A stretch of DNA of 21,321 bases. Origin: a virus. Location of the stretch: IMG/VR virus record IMGVR_UViG_3300044958_000137, positions 1-21,321 of that record; one strand, written 5' to 3'. A model generated the notes under the pieces. It worked only from the letters and a program-made list of their open reading frames with translations, had not been told where the DNA came from and did no database searches. This document shows positions 2,328 to 20,907 of the stretch, piece by piece. Made by a program: the position numbers and the translations under genes. The number at the start of each line of letters is the position of its first letter. Position 1 is the first letter of the stretch.

Positions 2328-2909
2328 CTATTGTTTTATTAATGTCATAGTAACTATTCTACACTTATTTTTATCGAATGTCAAGAACTTTTTATAATTT
2401 TCTAATATCTTATATATATTAGGCCAAACCACATCATCACTTAATTTCTTGTTCCAATTTTTTGTATACTCTACAAGACTATCAAGAATAATCATAGCTT
2501 CTATAGATACACGATTACCCAGATATTCTTTTAAAAGTATTGGGTGTGTATCTTTTGGTATTTCAAAAATATCATTTAGTTCATTGTTCTCTAGTAATGG
2601 AGTCATCTCTTGTTGAAATGTGTATGTCAAACTCTGCATACGTTTTTTCCATTCTGTATAGTTTTCGTCATTAAAATCACCTAGCCAACCTTTTTGATTT
2701 TTGATGAAGTTTGATAATAGGTAATCTCTTATTTTATCTTTGTCTTTATACTTGCGTGATGTTCGTACAAAGAAATGTCTGTCATTACGTTTCCAGAAGG
2801 AACTCTTAGTTGCTGATGATTTACCGTTATACTTAACAAAATCATAATCACCTTTACTAAAGTGTGCTTTCAATGCACAATACATTTGATATACTTCAAC
2901 TGCTTCCAT
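2328..2909 (-). CDS. 59: gp59 loader of replicative helicase gp41
   Basis: T4 gp59-type helicase assembly protein. It binds fork DNA and gp32 and loads the gp41 hexamer. Compared from memory with T4 gp59, the shared pattern runs along the whole length: VYQMYCALKAHF near residue 5, YDFVKYNGK (22-30), the KRNDRHFFVRTSRKY segment (about 40-54), YLLSNFIKNQKGWLGDF (about 63-79), EEMTPLL, PILLKEYL and AMIILDSLVEYTKNW (about 138-152), and VWPN near 162. Length 193 against 217 in T4. Its stop/start overlaps the oxygenase gene at 2909, and it sits between gp33 and gp32 as in T4, which strengthens the call. Confidence 0.9.
   Translation of the reverse strand: MEAVEVYQMYCALKAHFSKGDYDFVKYNGKSSATKSSFWKRNDRHFFVRTSRKYKDKDKIRDYLLSNFIKNQKGWLGDFNDENYTEWKKRMQSLTYTFQQEMTPLLENNELNDIFEIPKDTHPILLKEYLGNRVSIEAMIILDSLVEYTKNWNKKLSDDVVWPNIYKILENYKKFLTFDKNKCRIVTMTLIKQ
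2356..2384 (-). promoter_or_regulatory. Sigma-70-type promoter inside the 3' end of gene 59
   Basis: TTGACA (2384-2379), 17-base spacer, TAGAAT (2361-2356) on the minus strand. It lies about 40 bases before the ATG at 2318 and would drive the small coiled-coil gene, the Rossmann-like gene and gp32 separately from the upstream genes. Confidence 0.7.
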
Positions 2910-3469
2910 TATCTATTCCAATTTAACCAACCAGTCACAATTGTTTTTTCATGCGTCTTTGATATAATTCCATGATGCACATGAGTAAAATCTGTAGGCC
3001 ATAATATTAAATCACCCTTGATACATTCTGTTGTATGTTTTAGATGGGTAAAGTGTGTTCCACTATTTGGTGTATCTGTTAGATATAACATAAAGACTAA
3101 TGCTCTACTAGAAGTTTTAATATTTACTCTTTCAAAGTGTGGTTGAGGATATCCCATACCAAGATTATAATGTTGTATGTTTATATTTTCGCCTATAACT
3201 ACGTCCCAAGATTGTTCTGGTGGTAGATATTTAGTAAAATATTTTTCAACACATTTTCCAAGAAATTCTGGAAATCCACCGAATACGTTTACACTGTGTC
3301 GCATAAAATCTTCTGGAGCTATGTGAAGTTCTAAAGAGTCTTTAATTTTCTTGTTAACAGTTTTAGCACCAACCAATCCAACTCTGTGACCTTTTTCGTT
3401 TTCCCAAAAAAGTTTAAGTATTTTATCACAAACTTCATGTTGAACTTTGTAAGTTTCTATAAAGTTCAT
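2909..3469 (-). CDS. 2OG-Fe(II) oxygenase, prolyl-hydroxylase-like
   Basis: Predicted non-heme iron dioxygenase using 2-oxoglutarate and O2. Visible parts of the double-stranded beta-helix: INIQHYNLG (97-104), the first metal motif H-x-E (H111, E113) in YPQPHFE, FMLYLTD (126-132), GDLILWPTDFTHVHHG (152-167) holding the distal His, and KTIVTGWLNW near the end as the usual 2OG-binding strand. The metal motif is HxE rather than HxD, an accepted variant. It is inserted between gp33 and gp59, overlapping both by a few bases. Substrate unknown. It is one of four such enzymes in this window. Confidence 0.8.
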   Translation of the reverse strand: MNFIETYKVQHEVCDKILKLFWENEKGHRVGLVGAKTVNKKIKDSLELHIAPEDFMRHSVNVFGGFPEFLGKCVEKYFTKYLPPEQSWDVVIGENINIQHYNLGMGYPQPHFERVNIKTSSRALVFMLYLTDTPNSGTHFTHLKHTTECIKGDLILWPTDFTHVHHGIISKTHEKTIVTGWLNWNR

Positions 3470-3687
3470 ACAGGCAGTTGTGCGTGTCTTGGTAGAAAAT
3501 TTAACTCTCTAGCATTGTTTTCTATTTTTTCTTTTAATGCTTTTGTGATAAGACTAGATACTTTATCTGGCTCAATACTGTTTTTACTACAGTACCATAG
3601 AACAGCATCCATATGTGTTATCTTTTTTTGTTTGACTATATCTTCTATTTCTAAAGAAAATATTTTAGGTGTTTGTTTCACTTCCAT
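3466..3687 (-). CDS. 33: gp33 late-transcription co-activator
   Basis: Small (73 residues) homologue of the T4 gp33 RNA polymerase-binding protein, which links the sliding clamp to polymerase for late transcription. The helical pattern IEDIVKQKKITHMDAVLWYCSKN and the following IEPDKVSSLITKALKEKI, then NFLPRH, match the gp33 of marine T4-like phages as I know it. Its place directly before gp59 and gp32 is the T4 order. A GGAG ribosome site lies 5 bases before the ATG. The gene follows the PqqA-like peptide and a strong hairpin (3714-3734), and it is transcribed from the tmRNA side. Confidence 0.8.
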   Translation of the reverse strand: MEVKQTPKIFSLEIEDIVKQKKITHMDAVLWYCSKNSIEPDKVSSLITKALKEKIENNARELNFLPRHAQLPV

Positions 3688-3713: not shown

Positions 3714-3734
3714 GGTGGGGTATTGCACCCCACC
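3714..3734 (-). repeat. Hairpin repeating the tmRNA T-arm sequence
   Basis: Perfect 7-bp stem with a 7-base loop: GGTGGGG TGCAATA CCCCACC (minus strand). The inner 17 bases, TGGGGTGCAATACCCCA, are identical to the T-arm of the tmRNA at 4047-4063. There is no T run behind it, so it is not a standard terminator. It lies between the pqqA-like stop and the gp33 ribosome site. It could be an RNA-processing or stabilising hairpin, or a leftover of duplication of the tmRNA 3' end. Confidence 0.8.
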
Positions 3735-3748
3735 AAGTTTTGTACTAA

Positions 3749-3823
3749 CTATATTTCAGCACATGCATAACAGTTGATTTCTAAACCTACTGCTATTTCT
3801 GTTATTACTGGTGATTTCCACAT
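3749..3823 (-). CDS. pqqA: PqqA-like precursor peptide of pyrroloquinoline quinone
   Basis: A 24-residue ORF: MWKSPVITEIAVGLE, then INCYACAEI. It has the PqqA hallmarks: a Trp at the N-terminus, a Pro soon after, and the invariant Glu and Tyr spaced E-x3-Y (E15 and Y19) that host PqqE crosslinks and that end up as the PQQ cofactor. The pattern P-x-I-x-E-I-x-V-G-x-E-x3-Y-x-x-A-E-I resembles alphaproteobacterial and methylotroph PqqA as I recall it. A GTAGGGG ribosome site sits 7 bases before the ATG. It lies just behind the tmRNA coding piece and probably shares its transcript. No pqqBCDE genes are in the window, so maturation would depend on the host. Two Cys (18, 21) flank the Tyr, which is unusual. 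Confidence 0.8.
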   Translation of the reverse strand: MWKSPVITEIAVGLEINCYACAEI

Positions 3824-3842
3824 AGTATTTCCCCTACTTTGT

Positions 3843-4100
3843 TGGTGGACATTCTGTTGCTAGGTAGTCCACCGAAAACCCCATGAGATTAAGCAGCTAG
3901 TGCATAATCCTCGATTGCAAAGTTATCGTTTGCATTTACATTTTGAACTATGAAGCGTTCAACCTATAACTCTCCGTTTCACTATACAATACCAGTCGAA
4001 CCTATTTCGCCCCCTAAGTCGGAACTATCTAGGTCTGGTGGAGGCGTGGGGTATTGCACCCCAGTCCTGTCTATTCTTCGTTCCACTTCAACAAGTCATA
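3843..4100 (-). ncRNA. ssrA: Two-piece circularly permuted tmRNA (tag ANDNFAIEDYALAA)
   Basis: Phage-encoded tmRNA, which rescues stalled ribosomes and tags the peptide for proteolysis. Read 5'-3' on the minus strand, the acceptor piece comes first: hairpin ACTT/AAGT, H2 3' strand AATAGACAG (4075-4067), T-arm TGGGG-TGCAATA-CCCCA (4063-4047), acceptor 3' strand CGCCTCC, and encoded ACCA ending at 4036. After a 21-base spacer (4035-4015) comes the coding piece: acceptor 5' strand GGGGGCG (4014-4008, pairs with CGCCTCC with one G-U), the tmRNA signature GGTTCGACTGG, H2 5' strand CTGGTATT (3995-3988), and a TTGAAC/GTTCAA hairpin. Then the tag frame GCA-AAC-GAT... (3933-3889) gives ANDNFAIEDYALAA-stop, and a GGTGGAC/GTCCACC hairpin (3873-3844) closes the piece. 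The order acceptor-spacer-coding is the alphaproteobacterial permuted form. The outer ends are approximate. Confidence 0.93.
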
Positions 4101-4105
4101 CACTA

Positions 4106-4135
4106 TATATACCACAAAAGTATTATCTTTGTCAA
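4106..4135 (-). promoter_or_regulatory. Sigma-70-type promoter of the tmRNA/pqqA/gp33 unit
   Basis: TTGACA (4135-4130), 18-base spacer, TATATA (4111-4106) on the minus strand. Transcription would start near 4100, just before the tmRNA acceptor piece, and could continue through the PqqA-like peptide into gp33, the oxygenase and gp59. Confidence 0.75.
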
Positions 4136-4153: not shown

Positions 4154-4756
4154 TTACACATAGTGCAAATAAGTTTGTAGTATATATTTTGGTTTGTTTT
4201 TAGGTTTGTTACCCCTATGAGTCCAAGGCCACATGGGTGGAAATAATAGTACACTTCCTTTTTTACATGGTGACCTAAATGCTAACTTCTCTTGCATCTT
4301 ACCTCTCCAACCAAATTCTGGAAAGTCTGTTTCACCAGATACATTATCATCTAGGTAACAAAATACTGTAAGAAATCTTCTTGCAGCCTTATAACCATTT
4401 ACGTCAATATGATTGAAGAACTCATCTGTACCATTATCCTGATACTTGTTTATTCGTAAACCTTCCCAAGTCCATTCCTCTGGAAATTGGTATTTGTCAA
4501 TCTTACAGTCTTTCTTATATTTCTCTACTATACCTTCGTATATCTTTGTTATTTTAGATATGTCTTCTTCCCAACCCTTAGCACCAGATTTACCAAAGTT
4601 AGAATCCATAATATCAAGACGAGCAAACTTTCTTCTAAAGCTATCTACTTTGTCTTTATACTTGGTGTCTTCTTCAAATCGTTTTACTAGATAGTCGCAG
4701 TAGTCGTCATCTAAAACATTCTCATATACTCTACATAGGTGTGATAATTCACTCAT
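4154..4756 (-). CDS. 2OG-Fe(II) oxygenase, prolyl-4-hydroxylase-like
   Basis: A 200-residue iron/2-oxoglutarate dioxygenase with the whole core visible: GLRINKYQDN (99-108), FFNHIDVNG with the metal pair H116 and D118, RRFLTVFCYLDD (126-137), GETDFPEFG (141-149), the late part KKGSVLLFPPMWPWTHRG with distal H180, and KPKYILQTYLHYV carrying the basic 2OG-binding residue (K188 or K190). The order and spacing are those of P4H-type enzymes, which hydroxylate protein or small-molecule substrates. The target is unknown. It overlaps the start of the neighbour by four bases (stop-start overlap with the RecB-like nuclease) and is followed by the tmRNA promoter. Confidence 0.88.
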   Translation of the reverse strand: MSELSHLCRVYENVLDDDYCDYLVKRFEEDTKYKDKVDSFRRKFARLDIMDSNFGKSGAKGWEEDISKITKIYEGIVEKYKKDCKIDKYQFPEEWTWEGLRINKYQDNGTDEFFNHIDVNGYKAARRFLTVFCYLDDNVSGETDFPEFGWRGKMQEKLAFRSPCKKGSVLLFPPMWPWTHRGNKPKNKPKYILQTYLHYV

Positions 4757-11847: not shown

Positions 11848-12327
11848 TTAAAATCGTGATAAAAATCTACCAATATGATGAACCCAAGGCAATAGAGTTG
11901 CAGCCATAAATAGATTAACTCCAGTATGTGCAATCGCAATCCTTAGTGTGTCACCTTTGGGCACACCATCTGACACCAGAAAACCTGCTAACCATATTGT
12001 ACCAGTTGTTCCTATGTTCGCACCCAATACACACGCAATTGCAGCTGGTAAGGGTATTGCACCAGAAGCAACTAATGCTATGATTGCAGTTGTGGATAAA
12101 CTAGACGATTGCCATAATATTGTCATGACAATACCACCAAAGAACATATACATAGGATTTGCAGTAAACCACGATAAATGTTCCATATTACCCATTGATT
12201 TCATACCACCAGAAAACATCTTTAATCCAATATAGAATACAATAAGTCCTACAAGAACAGTTAATATAGGATTGCTTAACTCCATCTTTATCACCTTTTT
12301 TTGTAATTTTTTAATTTTATCTTTCAT
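11848..12327 (-). CDS. Half-size Na+/phosphate cotransporter-like protein
   Basis: 159 residues with one Na/Pi-cotransporter repeat (PF02690/NptA type). Signatures: FFGGIVMTILWQSSSLSTTAIIALVASGAIPL with the QSSS motif (73-76), LGANIGTTGTIWL (101-113), and AIAHTGVNLFMA (131-142), the family A-x-x-H-x-x-F/V-N motif. Predicted helices at about 18-38, 60-80, 80-106 and 128-148. Cellular NptA-like proteins hold two such inverted repeats, so this one would need to pair with itself. Likely phosphate uptake, an auxiliary gene for a P-limited host, though a different substrate cannot be excluded. It starts directly after the barrel gene (stop at 12328, ATG at 12327). Confidence 0.85.
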   Translation of the reverse strand: MKDKIKKLQKKVIKMELSNPILTVLVGLIVFYIGLKMFSGGMKSMGNMEHLSWFTANPMYMFFGGIVMTILWQSSSLSTTAIIALVASGAIPLPAAIACVLGANIGTTGTIWLAGFLVSDGVPKGDTLRIAIAHTGVNLFMAATLLPWVHHIGRFLSRF

Positions 12328-13682: not shown

Positions 13683-14519
13683 TTAAAAATCTCCTATCGA
13701 TTCAGTTAGTTCTTTTAATCTATTTTCTATAAAATAATTAAGTAGTTTACTTCTATCTCCATGAGGAGCTGTATCTATCTCAGATAAAATTTGTTCTTCT
13801 AGTTCTTGTGGTATTTTATCTAAGTTAATTAACTTCTCATTCCTTTGGTAGTTTCTTTTGGTTTCGGTTGGCATACTATCCATAGATTGTAACCAAGTTT
13901 CTATCTTCTTCTTTCCTAAAGGTCTTTGACGTAATCCCTCTACAAAGGTGTTATCACCTGATAATACATTGGGTACGCCATCACTTGTATCACCTTTTAG
14001 TATATGTATTCTTATATAGGTATCTGGGTCATGTCCGTTTACATACTTCTTTAGAATAGGGCTGTATTGTTTTACGTTCTCATATTTGTGTAACTGTATG
14101 AAGTCTTTATCACCAGACACAATCATAGTTGATTCACTTCCTTGTTTACATAGTGTTCCAATAATATCATCAGCCTCTGCACCATATACCTCTAGGTATT
14201 TGTATGGTAGGTATTCCTTAAACTCAGCTTTAATTTTGTTTAATACACCAAATATATTATCCCAATCTTTTGAATCCTTCTCTCTGGACTTCTTACGATT
14301 TTGTTTATATTGTGGAAAGAAATCTCTTCTCCAATAATGTCTAGAATCATAAGTCAGTATTACCTCACCATACTTATCTTTAAACATATTCCTATATAAA
14401 CGAATTGAGTTAAGAATCATATGTCTTATCATAGGTTCATCAACTTCTTCTGACTTAGTCATATGAAAATTCATCATTACACTTGCCATACTTATTTGAT
14501 TCATATCAATTATTATCAC
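13683..14519 (-). CDS. rnh: RNase H / 5'-3' exonuclease (FEN-1-like)
   Basis: T4 RNase H homologue that removes RNA primers and nearby DNA from lagging-strand fragments. Metal-site acidic residues are in place: D5 (IIIDMNQ), D58 in YDSRHYWRRDFFPQYKQNRK (57-76), E115/D117/D118 in AEADDIIG, D137/D139 in SGDKDFIQL, and D177/D180 in GDTSDGVPN, the helix-hairpin-helix entry. Length 278 against 305 in T4. It overlaps the oxygenase gene by four bases (ATGA) at 14516-14519. Confidence 0.93.
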   Translation of the reverse strand: MIIIDMNQISMASVMMNFHMTKSEEVDEPMIRHMILNSIRLYRNMFKDKYGEVILTYDSRHYWRRDFFPQYKQNRKKSREKDSKDWDNIFGVLNKIKAEFKEYLPYKYLEVYGAEADDIIGTLCKQGSESTMIVSGDKDFIQLHKYENVKQYSPILKKYVNGHDPDTYIRIHILKGDTSDGVPNVLSGDNTFVEGLRQRPLGKKKIETWLQSMDSMPTETKRNYQRNEKLINLDKIPQELEEQILSEIDTAPHGDRSKLLNYFIENRLKELTESIGDF

Positions 14520-15283
14520 TTGTTTTCCTTTTTAGGTGCTTGCCAATATGCATTAAAACTCATACTTCGTCTTTCACCATCACAATAAAATGGATATACG
14601 GTATGTTTCAAGTAAGAAGGAAATAATAATATCATTCCTACTTCTGGTTTTACCATAAGAGTATCACTCCTCATATCTTGAGCTTCACCATATGAAAACT
14701 CAATTAATCCACTTGCTGGATAATGGTCTTTCGTTTCTTCATTAAAATGGTTCTCCATACCATCTGGTATTTTTAGATATATCACACCAGAGAAATGTCC
14801 ACTATGTTTATGCCATGGGTTGTATTCATTTTTATATTGACTTACAATCCAACTCTGAGCAATATTGATATTCTCTGTTTGTGGTATTGCACCCTTAGAT
14901 GCTTTATTCCATTCGTATGACCTATTCCAGTCTTTCATTTGTGTTAAATATTCTTTACAGTATGTTTTAAGTACGGATAGAGCATATGCAGAATCTTCTT
15001 TATTATACATTGGTATTGCAACTTCTTTAGATACCTTACCGACCAGACTATCTGAGAAATCCCACTTCTTACATAATCCATCATCTTTTAAAACTTTATC
15101 ACCAATATCATTAATGATGTTAACAAATCTTTGTGGTACTTTTGACTCTAGTATTGTTGGGCTAAAGTTTTGCCTCCAAGTCAATTTAAATTGGTCATCA
15201 CCAGCAAACGCAGTAGTATTTTTTACATGAGTTGCTACCATTGATTTTCTTCCACCAAATGGTGATTTATTTTTTGCCATCAT
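14516..15283 (-). CDS. 2OG-Fe(II) oxygenase, phage-type
   Basis: 255 residues with an active-site pattern like the 2OG-FeII_Oxy_5 family: IAQSWIVSQYKNEYNPWHKHSG (H158 and H160), HFSGVIYLKIP (163-173), VKPEVGMILLFPSYLKHTVYPF with the distal H227, and GERRSMSFNAYW supplying the Arg for 2OG. The N-terminal 130 residues are helical and specific to phages. Substrate unknown. Two ATGs, 15283 and 15280; the AGGA ribosome site fits the second slightly better. It overlaps the upstream gene by 17 bases. Confidence 0.8.
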   Translation of the reverse strand: MMAKNKSPFGGRKSMVATHVKNTTAFAGDDQFKLTWRQNFSPTILESKVPQRFVNIINDIGDKVLKDDGLCKKWDFSDSLVGKVSKEVAIPMYNKEDSAYALSVLKTYCKEYLTQMKDWNRSYEWNKASKGAIPQTENINIAQSWIVSQYKNEYNPWHKHSGHFSGVIYLKIPDGMENHFNEETKDHYPASGLIEFSYGEAQDMRSDTLMVKPEVGMILLFPSYLKHTVYPFYCDGERRSMSFNAYWQAPKKENK

Positions 15284-18368: not shown

Positions 18369-18629
18369 TTAAAGATTCTTAAAAGTCATCTGAGCATCTT
18401 TATCTTCAACTAACATTTGTTTTTCTTGTTCAGAATTGTAATGTCTATTGAGAACACCAAGTTTATCCTCAGAATGTGCAATTACATCTACCTGTGTATC
18501 AATTGCAGCTGCAAGGTCTGGGTGTTCCCCTATACCTGCTGGGTTTGTCACATAAACTTCAATATTTGCTTTTGCATTTAAAATATCTGCATTGTATTTT
18601 GCGGCTAATGCCTTTATTAAGTTACTCAT
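18369..18629 (-). CDS. Conserved T4-like phage protein of unknown function
   Basis: 86 residues, soluble and helical: LIKALAAKYNADILNAKANIEVYVTNPAGIGEHPDLAAAIDTQVDVIAHSEDKL then LNRHY. The segment NIEVYVTNPAGIGEHPDL is strikingly conserved in similar proteins of marine T4-like phages as I recall them, with no known role. It overlaps the stop of the RimK-like gene at 18629 and is the last gene before the promoter at 18333-18361. Confidence 0.75.
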   Translation of the reverse strand: MSNLIKALAAKYNADILNAKANIEVYVTNPAGIGEHPDLAAAIDTQVDVIAHSEDKLGVLNRHYNSEQEKQMLVEDKDAQMTFKNL

Positions 18630-19621
18630 TATAATCTCCAGTTATCTCTATTTTTATATATTTTAAGGACTTCTTTTAGTATATCACCTTTAATGATGGT
18701 ATTATATCCAACAGTTCCAGGCTGTGTATTTACTTCTAGAACATATGGTCTTTCTTTTTCTCTATTTTTAGATGGAATTAAATCTATACCAAGCCAACCT
18801 CCTCTTGGTTTCATGGCTTTTAAAACAATTTCTACTTCCATTTTTTCTAACTCTGTTAATTCCATTTTCTCTGGTTCAGAGCCTTGATGCACATTACTTC
18901 TAAAATCACCAGATGGAACTGGTCTTTTCATTGCACCATGTATTTTACCAGCAAGAACTATAACTCTAATATCATATTCAAGAGGAATAAACTCTTGAAT
19001 AATCATTCCTCTTTGTTGATTCAATCTTGTTATTAATTGTGTTGTAGCAAGTAATTGTGTTTCATTTTCAATTTTAATAACACCAACACCACCAGTTCCT
19101 AATTGTGTTTTAAGAATAACTGGAAACTTTGTATTTAATCTTTCATAGACATCTTTAGATTTTTCTGGACTATTTAATAGAAGTGTATTGGGTTGTTTTG
19201 CACCAACCTTTTTAAGAGTAACATATGTTCTCCATTTATCTGCACACAATAAATGCACACCTAACGAATTAATTACAGTTACATCAGACTCTTCTAAATC
19301 ATATATCATACCTTGCCAGTTTACAAACTCATTTGATTTAGACCTATTGAATACTACAGTATTTTCATCTATTAAAAATTCTTTATCATCAGAGTCGTGT
19401 ATAAAAAGTTTATTATTTTTACGAGTTAAGTACGAGTCTTCAATTCTACATTTAAAACCTTCAAGTCCAAGTTCTTTTCCATACTTCACCATCTTGATTG
19501 CCATTTCTTCAGCTTCTGCTTTTGAGTCATCACCTACATTTTTTGCGTCATTAAATATTACGACAAAGCGATATGGTTTCTCATTATCTTGTTCTTTTAA
19601 AAATTCAGCAAATTTTCCCAT
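18629..19621 (-). CDS. RimK-like ATP-grasp ligase
   Basis: 330 residues. An N-terminal pre-ATP-grasp part (1-120) is followed by an ATP-grasp fold: FPVILKTQLGTGGVGVIKI (166-184, Gly-rich loop), MIIQEFIPLEYDIRVIVLAG (206-225), FRSNVHQG (240-247), GIDLIPS (278-284) and VLEVNTQPG (294-302) with the metal residues D280, E296 and N298. The segments EF-x-x-x-x-x-D-x-R, FR-x-N-x-x-x-G and EVN are those of RimK, which adds glutamates to ribosomal protein S6 in E. coli. The substrate here is unknown: ribosome, other protein or small molecule. One-base overlap with regA. Confidence 0.82.
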   Translation of the reverse strand: MGKFAEFLKEQDNEKPYRFVVIFNDAKNVGDDSKAEAEEMAIKMVKYGKELGLEGFKCRIEDSYLTRKNNKLFIHDSDDKEFLIDENTVVFNRSKSNEFVNWQGMIYDLEESDVTVINSLGVHLLCADKWRTYVTLKKVGAKQPNTLLLNSPEKSKDVYERLNTKFPVILKTQLGTGGVGVIKIENETQLLATTQLITRLNQQRGMIIQEFIPLEYDIRVIVLAGKIHGAMKRPVPSGDFRSNVHQGSEPEKMELTELEKMEVEIVLKAMKPRGGWLGIDLIPSKNREKERPYVLEVNTQPGTVGYNTIIKGDILKEVLKIYKNRDNWRL

Positions 19622-20409: not shown

Positions 20410-20907
20410 TTAATCTCTTTTCACATTTGTTTTAAAAACGACACATGTTCTAAGTTCGTAACACCCTCTTGAAACTGCTTGAGCTTGATGTGGCTTACTT
20501 GCTGTAAACATTATCAGTCTATTTCCTTTATATCCAACAAGTTTATCATCTATGGTAGTTCCACCACCCCACGATTGTTTCCAATCTAATCTGGGGTAAT
20601 AAATGATGGTAAAATCACCATCATCTACATGTCTGTGTGGCTCAATTCCAAAGGTGTGAGCATTTAAATATACCCTCTCCATCTCAAGTTCTGGTTTATG
20701 TTTTTTAACTGCGTTCCAAATAGGGATAAGGTCACCATAGCCATTGTCATAACATTCTTGAGGATTGTGTCCACAAAATACATGCCAGTGTTTATTCACA
20801 CCATTCTTTACAGAATCATAGTTGTACTTCCAAGATACATCTCTCAGTTGTATATCAATAATTTCTGCAACATGAGGTTCTAATATATCATCAAATACTT
20901 CTATCAT
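20410..20907 (-). CDS. 2OG-Fe(II) oxygenase
   Basis: 165-residue dioxygenase: VYLNAHTFGIEPHRHVDDGDFTIIYYP (79-105) with the H-x-D site (H93/D95), WGGGTTIDD (113-121), GNRLIMFTASKPHQAQAVSRG with the distal H140, and YELRTCVVFKTN with R153 for 2OG. Complete and compact, with no extra domains. It sits between gp62 and a partial ORF, overlapping the latter (ATGA). The fourth and shortest oxygenase of the window; its substrate is unknown. Confidence 0.85.
   Translation of the reverse strand: MIEVFDDILEPHVAEIIDIQLRDVSWKYNYDSVKNGVNKHWHVFCGHNPQECYDNGYGDLIPIWNAVKKHKPELEMERVYLNAHTFGIEPHRHVDDGDFTIIYYPRLDWKQSWGGGTTIDDKLVGYKGNRLIMFTASKPHQAQAVSRGCYELRTCVVFKTNVKRD

Follow-up and report, generated by a model that had tools for sequence, protein, structure and literature searches.

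Organization of the pqqA locus

The window, i.e. the whole 21,321-nucleotide stretch of IMG/VR record IMGVR_UViG_3300044958_000137 analyzed here, is a fragment of a true T4-like phage genome. Its gene content includes gp32, gp59, gp33, PhoH, a serine hydroxymethyltransferase-like protein and lysozyme. The minus-strand open reading frame running from 3823 to 3749 is translated to the 24-residue peptide MWKSPVITEIAVGLEINCYACAEI, followed by a stop codon, and is located between a permuted tmRNA gene and the gene for a gp33-like protein (Table 1). Because gp32, gp33, gp59, PhoH and lysozyme genes surround this frame and cultured phages carry homologs of it (see below), its location is truly that of a phage gene.

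The peptide shares with the PqqA family (PF08042, TIGR02107) its length, a tryptophan near the N-terminus (W2), a proline (P5), E9 and the pattern G13-x-E15-x3-Y19, which contains the E-x3-Y pair; it differs from the family in being phage-encoded and standing alone, without pqqBCDE. It scored 22.7 bits against the Pfam PqqA model PF08042 (cut-off 21.1) and 26.7 against the NCBIfam equivalog model TIGR02107 (cut-off 20, E=3.5e-6). An earlier note, made from the letters of the window alone, had described a PqqA-like frame with a Shine-Dalgarno sequence, an N-terminal Trp and E-x3-Y; this description is borne out by the sequence and by both PqqA models, whose curated cut-offs are exceeded. In a six-frame profile search of the whole window, pqqA was the sole PqqA match (E=2.3e-5, 20.4 bits, which in this mode falls slightly below the Pfam cut-off). 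The plus-strand reading of 3749-3823 was rejected, its frame not being open.

Table 1. Features of the tmRNA-pqqA-gp33 region and T4-like marker genes of the window
Feature	Coordinates	Strand	Evidence
gp32-like ssDNA-binding protein (T4-like phage marker)	408..1307	-	phrog_224, E=2e-112
gp59-like DNA helicase loader	2328..2909	-	phrog_269, E=1e-61
gp33-like late-transcription coactivator, conserved downstream neighbor	3466..3687	-	phrog_254, E=2e-20
Stem-loop GGTGGGG-TGCAATA-CCCCACC, directly 3' of pqqA	3714..3734	-	MFE -16.3 kcal/mol, z -2.7
pqqA, 24 aa, MWKSPVITEIAVGLEINCYACAEI	3749..3823	-	PqqA profile matches; conservation under purifying selection in relatives
Shine-Dalgarno AGGGG of pqqA	3831..3835	-	Sequence; 7 nt before ATG
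Permuted (two-piece) tmRNA gene	3841..4099	-	Rfam RF04321 and RF01849; ARAGORN tmRNA*
tmRNA tag ORF, ANDNFAIEDYALAA and stop	3889..3933	-	ARAGORN
Promoter-like element TTGACA-N18-TATATA, upstream of the tmRNA/pqqA unit	4106..4135	-	Perfect -35 hexamer and conservation

The tmRNA is permuted and of the alphaproteobacterial type (RF04321, 109.2 bits, 4099-3889; RF01849 alpha_tmRNA, 94.5 bits, 4139-3841). The adjacency of the PqqA frame to the tmRNA, noted earlier, was confirmed, with the Rfam 3' end at 3841, 17 nt ahead of the pqqA ATG; the strand, which had not been stated, is minus. The end given by ARAGORN (3798) overlaps the pqqA start and is looser than the Rfam boundary. Upstream of the unit, the TTGACA-N18-TATATA element is kept in most relatives compared, e.g. 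ATTGACAAAGACAATACTTTTGTGGTATATATAAT, and is absent from two of them, L404 and L408. It was not listed in a consensus promoter scan, in which promoters were no more frequent than in shuffled sequences; its conservation points to a putative promoter function.

The GC-rich hairpin behind pqqA, probably a transcript 3' end or stabilizer, varies in stem sequence and persists in every relative examined, as judged from single-sequence folds (the MAFFT alignment misregisters the stems, hence covariation counts were dropped). Across the viral pqqA genes found, a downstream hairpin under -10 kcal/mol was found in 60%, versus 9% of control ORFs, and a Shine-Dalgarno-like motif in 94% versus 38%, the controls including some mis-called starts. 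Both features would suit a message that is short and strongly translated. The minus strand has two copies of the 17-base string GGGGTGCAATACCCCAC, one in the T-arm region of the tmRNA (4062-4046) and one in the hairpin behind pqqA (3731-3715); the repeat may have arisen by chance or by duplication of the T-arm, or may be a processing signal common to both.

Conservation and phylogeny of the pqqA slot

Relatives of the locus (80 in total) were collected through the neighboring gp33 protein, independently of the PqqA peptide. The order tmRNA-pqqA-hairpin-gp33 recurs among them: pqqA lies between tmRNA and gp33 in exactly the 12 loci closest to the window, those with gp33 at least 84% identical to its own, and in 42 more distant loci tmRNA is present and pqqA absent. 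Two checks proposed in the earlier note, conservation in related phages and the synonymous/nonsynonymous ratio, came out in favor of the gene. The frame occupies the same place with E15 and Y19 retained in 12/12 carriers, and the ratio is far from 1, with pN/pS = 0.16 across seven distinct coding sequences of the window clade (8 synonymous versus 5 nonsynonymous unique variable sites; binomial P ~0.0015 against neutrality). All replacements are confined to residues 6-11, outside G-x-E-x3-Y. These data characterize the window-clade pqqA as a short, putatively translated ORF under coding constraint. Since it is conserved in relatives gathered via gp33 rather than via the peptide and bears a coding signature, chance is excluded, and on sequence grounds we consider the frame to be a real pqqA. 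That all of the 231 peptides collected share W, P, G, E and Y was left out as evidence, because the search pattern demanded those residues.

The pqqA slot is confined to one T4-like clade that includes the OM43 phage Melnitz. In a tree of gp33 and gp59, all 25 slot carriers fall into a single supported 28-row clade containing Melnitz, and the 57 other rows have no pqqA in the slot; in a gp32-anchored set, slot pqqA was again limited to the same clade. In another subclade (L404, L408, L545 and L547), the same gp33-adjacent slot holds a different, HIMB59-like PqqA.

Distribution in viral contigs and cultured phages

Two degenerate DNA scans (at least 120 matches each) and the gp33 set were used to find further viral contigs, and among the matches listed at least ~230 bear pqqA. 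Two peptide types were distinguished, class A with FGFEVTMY and class B with VGLEIN(C/S)YACAE, the latter including the window. No pqqB, pqqC, pqqD or pqqE was found beside viral pqqA in ~230 loci among the matches listed, that of the window included. Representative neighbors encode portal, head, terminase, holin and endolysin proteins, and structural or lysis clusters are present in 91 of 230 loci (among the matches listed). One of the 32 larger pqqA contigs, 72 kb long, contains the full gene of a PQQ alcohol dehydrogenase adjoining a formate-dehydrogenase-like ORF. In this pqqA-bearing record (IMGVR_UViG_3300025120_009955; L058, L489), three genes stand in a row: one for a protein with curlin-like repeats, one for a complete PQQ methanol dehydrogenase, whose DYD motif is typical of lanthanide XoxF enzymes, and one resembling the alpha subunit of formate dehydrogenase. 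Two contigs binned with cellular genomes (L213 in a Maricaulis MAG, L304 in a Flavobacteriaceae MAG) are pqqA-bearing phages and binning errors, being up to 100% identical to viral contigs. A count of phage lineages by shared genes was not used, as the lineages merged by chaining into a single large group.

In a collection of 50,697 phage records, a class A query matched only nine from Methylophilales phages (Venkman, P19250A, MEP301, MEP401, MEP402 and four strains of Melnitz), one freshwater contig and two records that are mislabelled bacterial DNA. The latter, both named 'Acinetobacter phage MD-2021a' (CAKLQF020000010.1 and CAKLQH020000055.1), were rejected as bacterial DNA; the record inspected, CAKLQF020000010.1, holds a bacterial pqqABCDE operon and is thus at least partly host DNA. 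The peptides of five isolates and the freshwater contig all exceed the TIGR02107 cut-off (6/6, 34-41 bits). The annotations of Venkman, P19250A, MEP301 and MEP401 leave a gap where pqqA lies, and those of Melnitz and the freshwater contig show a hypothetical gene on the opposite strand instead; in none of the methylophage isolates is pqqA adjacent to tmRNA. To our knowledge, every known Methylophilales phage isolate (the OM43 phages and the freshwater P19250A) carries pqqA, although an exception may exist. A 2023 paper names three reported phages of OM43 (Venkman, MEP301 and Melnitz) and contributes MEP401 and MEP402; in the searchable papers on the Venkman, P19250A, MEP and Melnitz phages, phage pqqA is unmentioned.

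As a tblastn search of the phage collection with window-type peptides gave no match, no cultured phage of this PqqA type is known. Queries with two other alphaproteobacterial types of PqqA likewise gave no match in the collection, and the HIMB59-like type gave weak Acinetobacter matches only. No PHROGs family matches the phage PqqA peptides, which helps to explain why the gene has been overlooked; in the isolates it was probably missed owing to its length of ~24 aa.

Matching of phage PqqA to that of putative hosts

The class B phage peptides equal or nearly equal the PqqA of marine Alphaproteobacteria. Those of L123-type phages are identical (24/24) to the peptide of SP94, those of L133/L330-type phages (24/24) to the peptides of SFB_27D_100_8 and MarineAlpha9_Bin3, and the window peptide is 21/24 identical to its nearest marine alphaproteobacterial PqqA. 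The 24/24 matches are not contamination, since the phage and chromosomal genes are only 88-92% identical at the DNA level. The earlier view that the host needs the PQQ enzymes fits these data: PqqE exceeds its cut-off in 16 of 19 peptide-matched marine alphaproteobacterial genomes and PQQ alcohol dehydrogenase in 11 of 17. Several peptide-matched genomes carry 2-5 copies of pqqA. Such stand-alone or multiple genes (2-5 per genome) were seen in streamlined marine Alphaproteobacteria (L222 and L312 from one genome, L259, and genomes G011, G014 and G015), and are a cellular parallel to the phage gene.

The pqqA gene seems to follow the host, as class B matches marine Alphaproteobacteria and a HIMB59-like type fills the slot in another subclade. 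By peptide likeness alone, the host of the window phage would be a marine alphaproteobacterium. Host assignment via the tmRNA was dropped, because the window tmRNA had no DNA-level match in the 19 candidate genomes and the tags of matched genomes (ANDNSREVALAA and similar) differ from that of the window, so that the tmRNA names no host.

Comparison with known systems

Phage-encoded PqqA itself is already known. The earlier note had been aware of no described role for it, yet one Lake Baikal methylotroph phage population, VP_266, was reported in 2020 to encode PqqA and methanol dehydrogenase (Coutinho et al. 2020, PMC7678222). As in the window, this is a T4-like phage with a stand-alone PqqA, which was proposed to aid methanol oxidation; VP_266, however, was assigned to Methylophilaceae and has the methanol dehydrogenase, whereas the window PqqA is of the alphaproteobacterial type and lies behind a tmRNA. 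No dehydrogenase was seen within the 21 kb of the window. The gene is also listed among viral genes of reservoir sediments (2026; PMC13188868). Melnitz (PMC9004378) is the closest isolate by gp32 DNA and gp59 protein and also has a permuted tmRNA followed by gp33, but its tmRNA-gp33 slot lacks pqqA and its own copy is at 76,134-76,205. The stand-alone pqqA genes of methylotrophs and marine Alphaproteobacteria resemble the phage gene as extra or unlinked copies away from pqqBCDE with near-identical peptides; they differ in being chromosomal and, in the loci examined, not beside tmRNA. In the open-access literature searched, we found no mention of a tmRNA-pqqA-gp33 locus, of a host-matched alphaproteobacterial type, of so broad a distribution or of pqqA in cultured methylophages; the broad occurrence, the match to hosts, the link with the tmRNA and the presence in isolates where the gene had been overlooked appear to be new.

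Proposed role of phage PqqA

PqqE and PqqD cross-link the Glu and Tyr of PqqA, and PqqB and PqqC finish PQQ; one PqqA is consumed per PQQ, while the enzymes turn over. We propose, with a probability of roughly 0.8, that the window phage carries a genuine pqqA as a substrate-only auxiliary metabolic gene. Early synthesis of the peptide would be driven by the tmRNA promoter; the product would be bound by PqqD of the host and cross-linked between Glu15 and Tyr19 by host PqqE, and PQQ would be completed by host proteases together with PqqB and PqqC. The phage would thereby supply the consumable and leave its conversion to host PqqB-E. Because a new peptide is needed for every PQQ whereas the enzymes are used again, a gene of 75 bp could raise the PQQ supply, and the added cofactor may keep periplasmic PQQ-dependent alcohol and methanol dehydrogenases (XoxF type) active, providing energy during infection. 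The sequence data thus suggest that these phages may feed the alcohol- and methanol-oxidizing enzymes of their hosts. A PQQ-producing methylotroph strain carries five pqqA copies (PMC9851590). In Acetobacter, pqqAB overexpression increased PQQ by 29%, versus eightfold for the whole cluster (PMC7936290); with so small a gain, PqqA may not always limit PQQ, and support for PqqA alone being limiting is thin. Further PQQ or dehydrogenase genes may lie outside the 21-kb fragment.

The same binding pieces as in PqqA would also allow the phage peptide to act as a decoy that occupies host PqqD/PqqE, cuts PQQ output and shuts down periplasmic oxidation during infection, and PqqD could be titrated by surplus substrate. 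In a decoy, however, one would expect the loss of a cross-linked residue, and none of the gp33-anchored relatives with the gene has lost Glu15 or Tyr19; one pqqA phage also encodes a methanol dehydrogenase. Since the peptides of relatives are identical (24/24) to the host substrate, this role, raised earlier as that of a competing substrate, is improbable. We judge it equally improbable that the peptide serves a different radical-SAM or peptide-modifying system, or tmRNA-tied signaling or regulation, instead of PQQ synthesis. Phage genes are often repurposed and the tmRNA adjacency recurs in several subclades, but the TIGR02107 equivalog model is passed, the methylophage genes are not beside tmRNA, methylotrophs are the hosts wherever the host of a carrier is known, and most peptide-matched genomes encode PqqE.

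A recently acquired, functionless host fragment beside the tmRNA would agree with the very small size of the gene and its patchy occurrence among T4-like phages. Purifying selection on pqqA, the conserved Shine-Dalgarno sequence and hairpin, clade-wide retention and recurrence in unrelated methylophage isolates make such a neutral passenger very unlikely. Artefacts do exist in the collections, where two 'phage' records match via Acinetobacter DNA (with the pqqABCDE operon in one) and some 'host' contigs are mis-binned phages. Nevertheless, complete cultured phage genomes carry pqqA, and pqqA contigs encode portal, head, terminase and holin proteins, with a structural or lysis cluster in 91/230 loci, so that a chance ORF or cellular contamination is extremely unlikely as the source of the gene.

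Beyond the window, we lean, with less assurance than for the substrate-only gene itself, towards the view that host-matched pqqA mini-genes are near-universal in phages of PQQ-producing aquatic bacteria across several lineages, with precursor-only supply as a general strategy missed because of the ~24-codon length. If so, they would form a class of 'substrate-peptide' auxiliary genes, unlike the usual enzyme-coding ones, and could be used as host markers for unknown phages. Marine and freshwater methylotrophs, a major methanol sink, rely on PQQ enzymes; infection would directly tune methanol and alcohol oxidation if phages add to the supply of the PQQ precursor. Annotation pipelines miss metabolic genes this short. 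As cultured pairs already carry the unannotated gene (Venkman and Melnitz on OM43 strain H5P1, P19250A on IMCC19250), the idea is testable now.

Other genes in the window

Four 2OG-Fe(II) oxygenase-like genes are encoded on the minus strand of the window (2909-3469, 4154-4756, 14516-15283 and 20410-20907), one of them between gp33 and gp59; the fourth scores under the Pfam cut-off. The same strand encodes a RimK-like ATP-grasp ligase (18629-19621) and a 159-aa protein with a single Na+/Pi-cotransporter domain (11848-12327), a possible phosphate-uptake gene.
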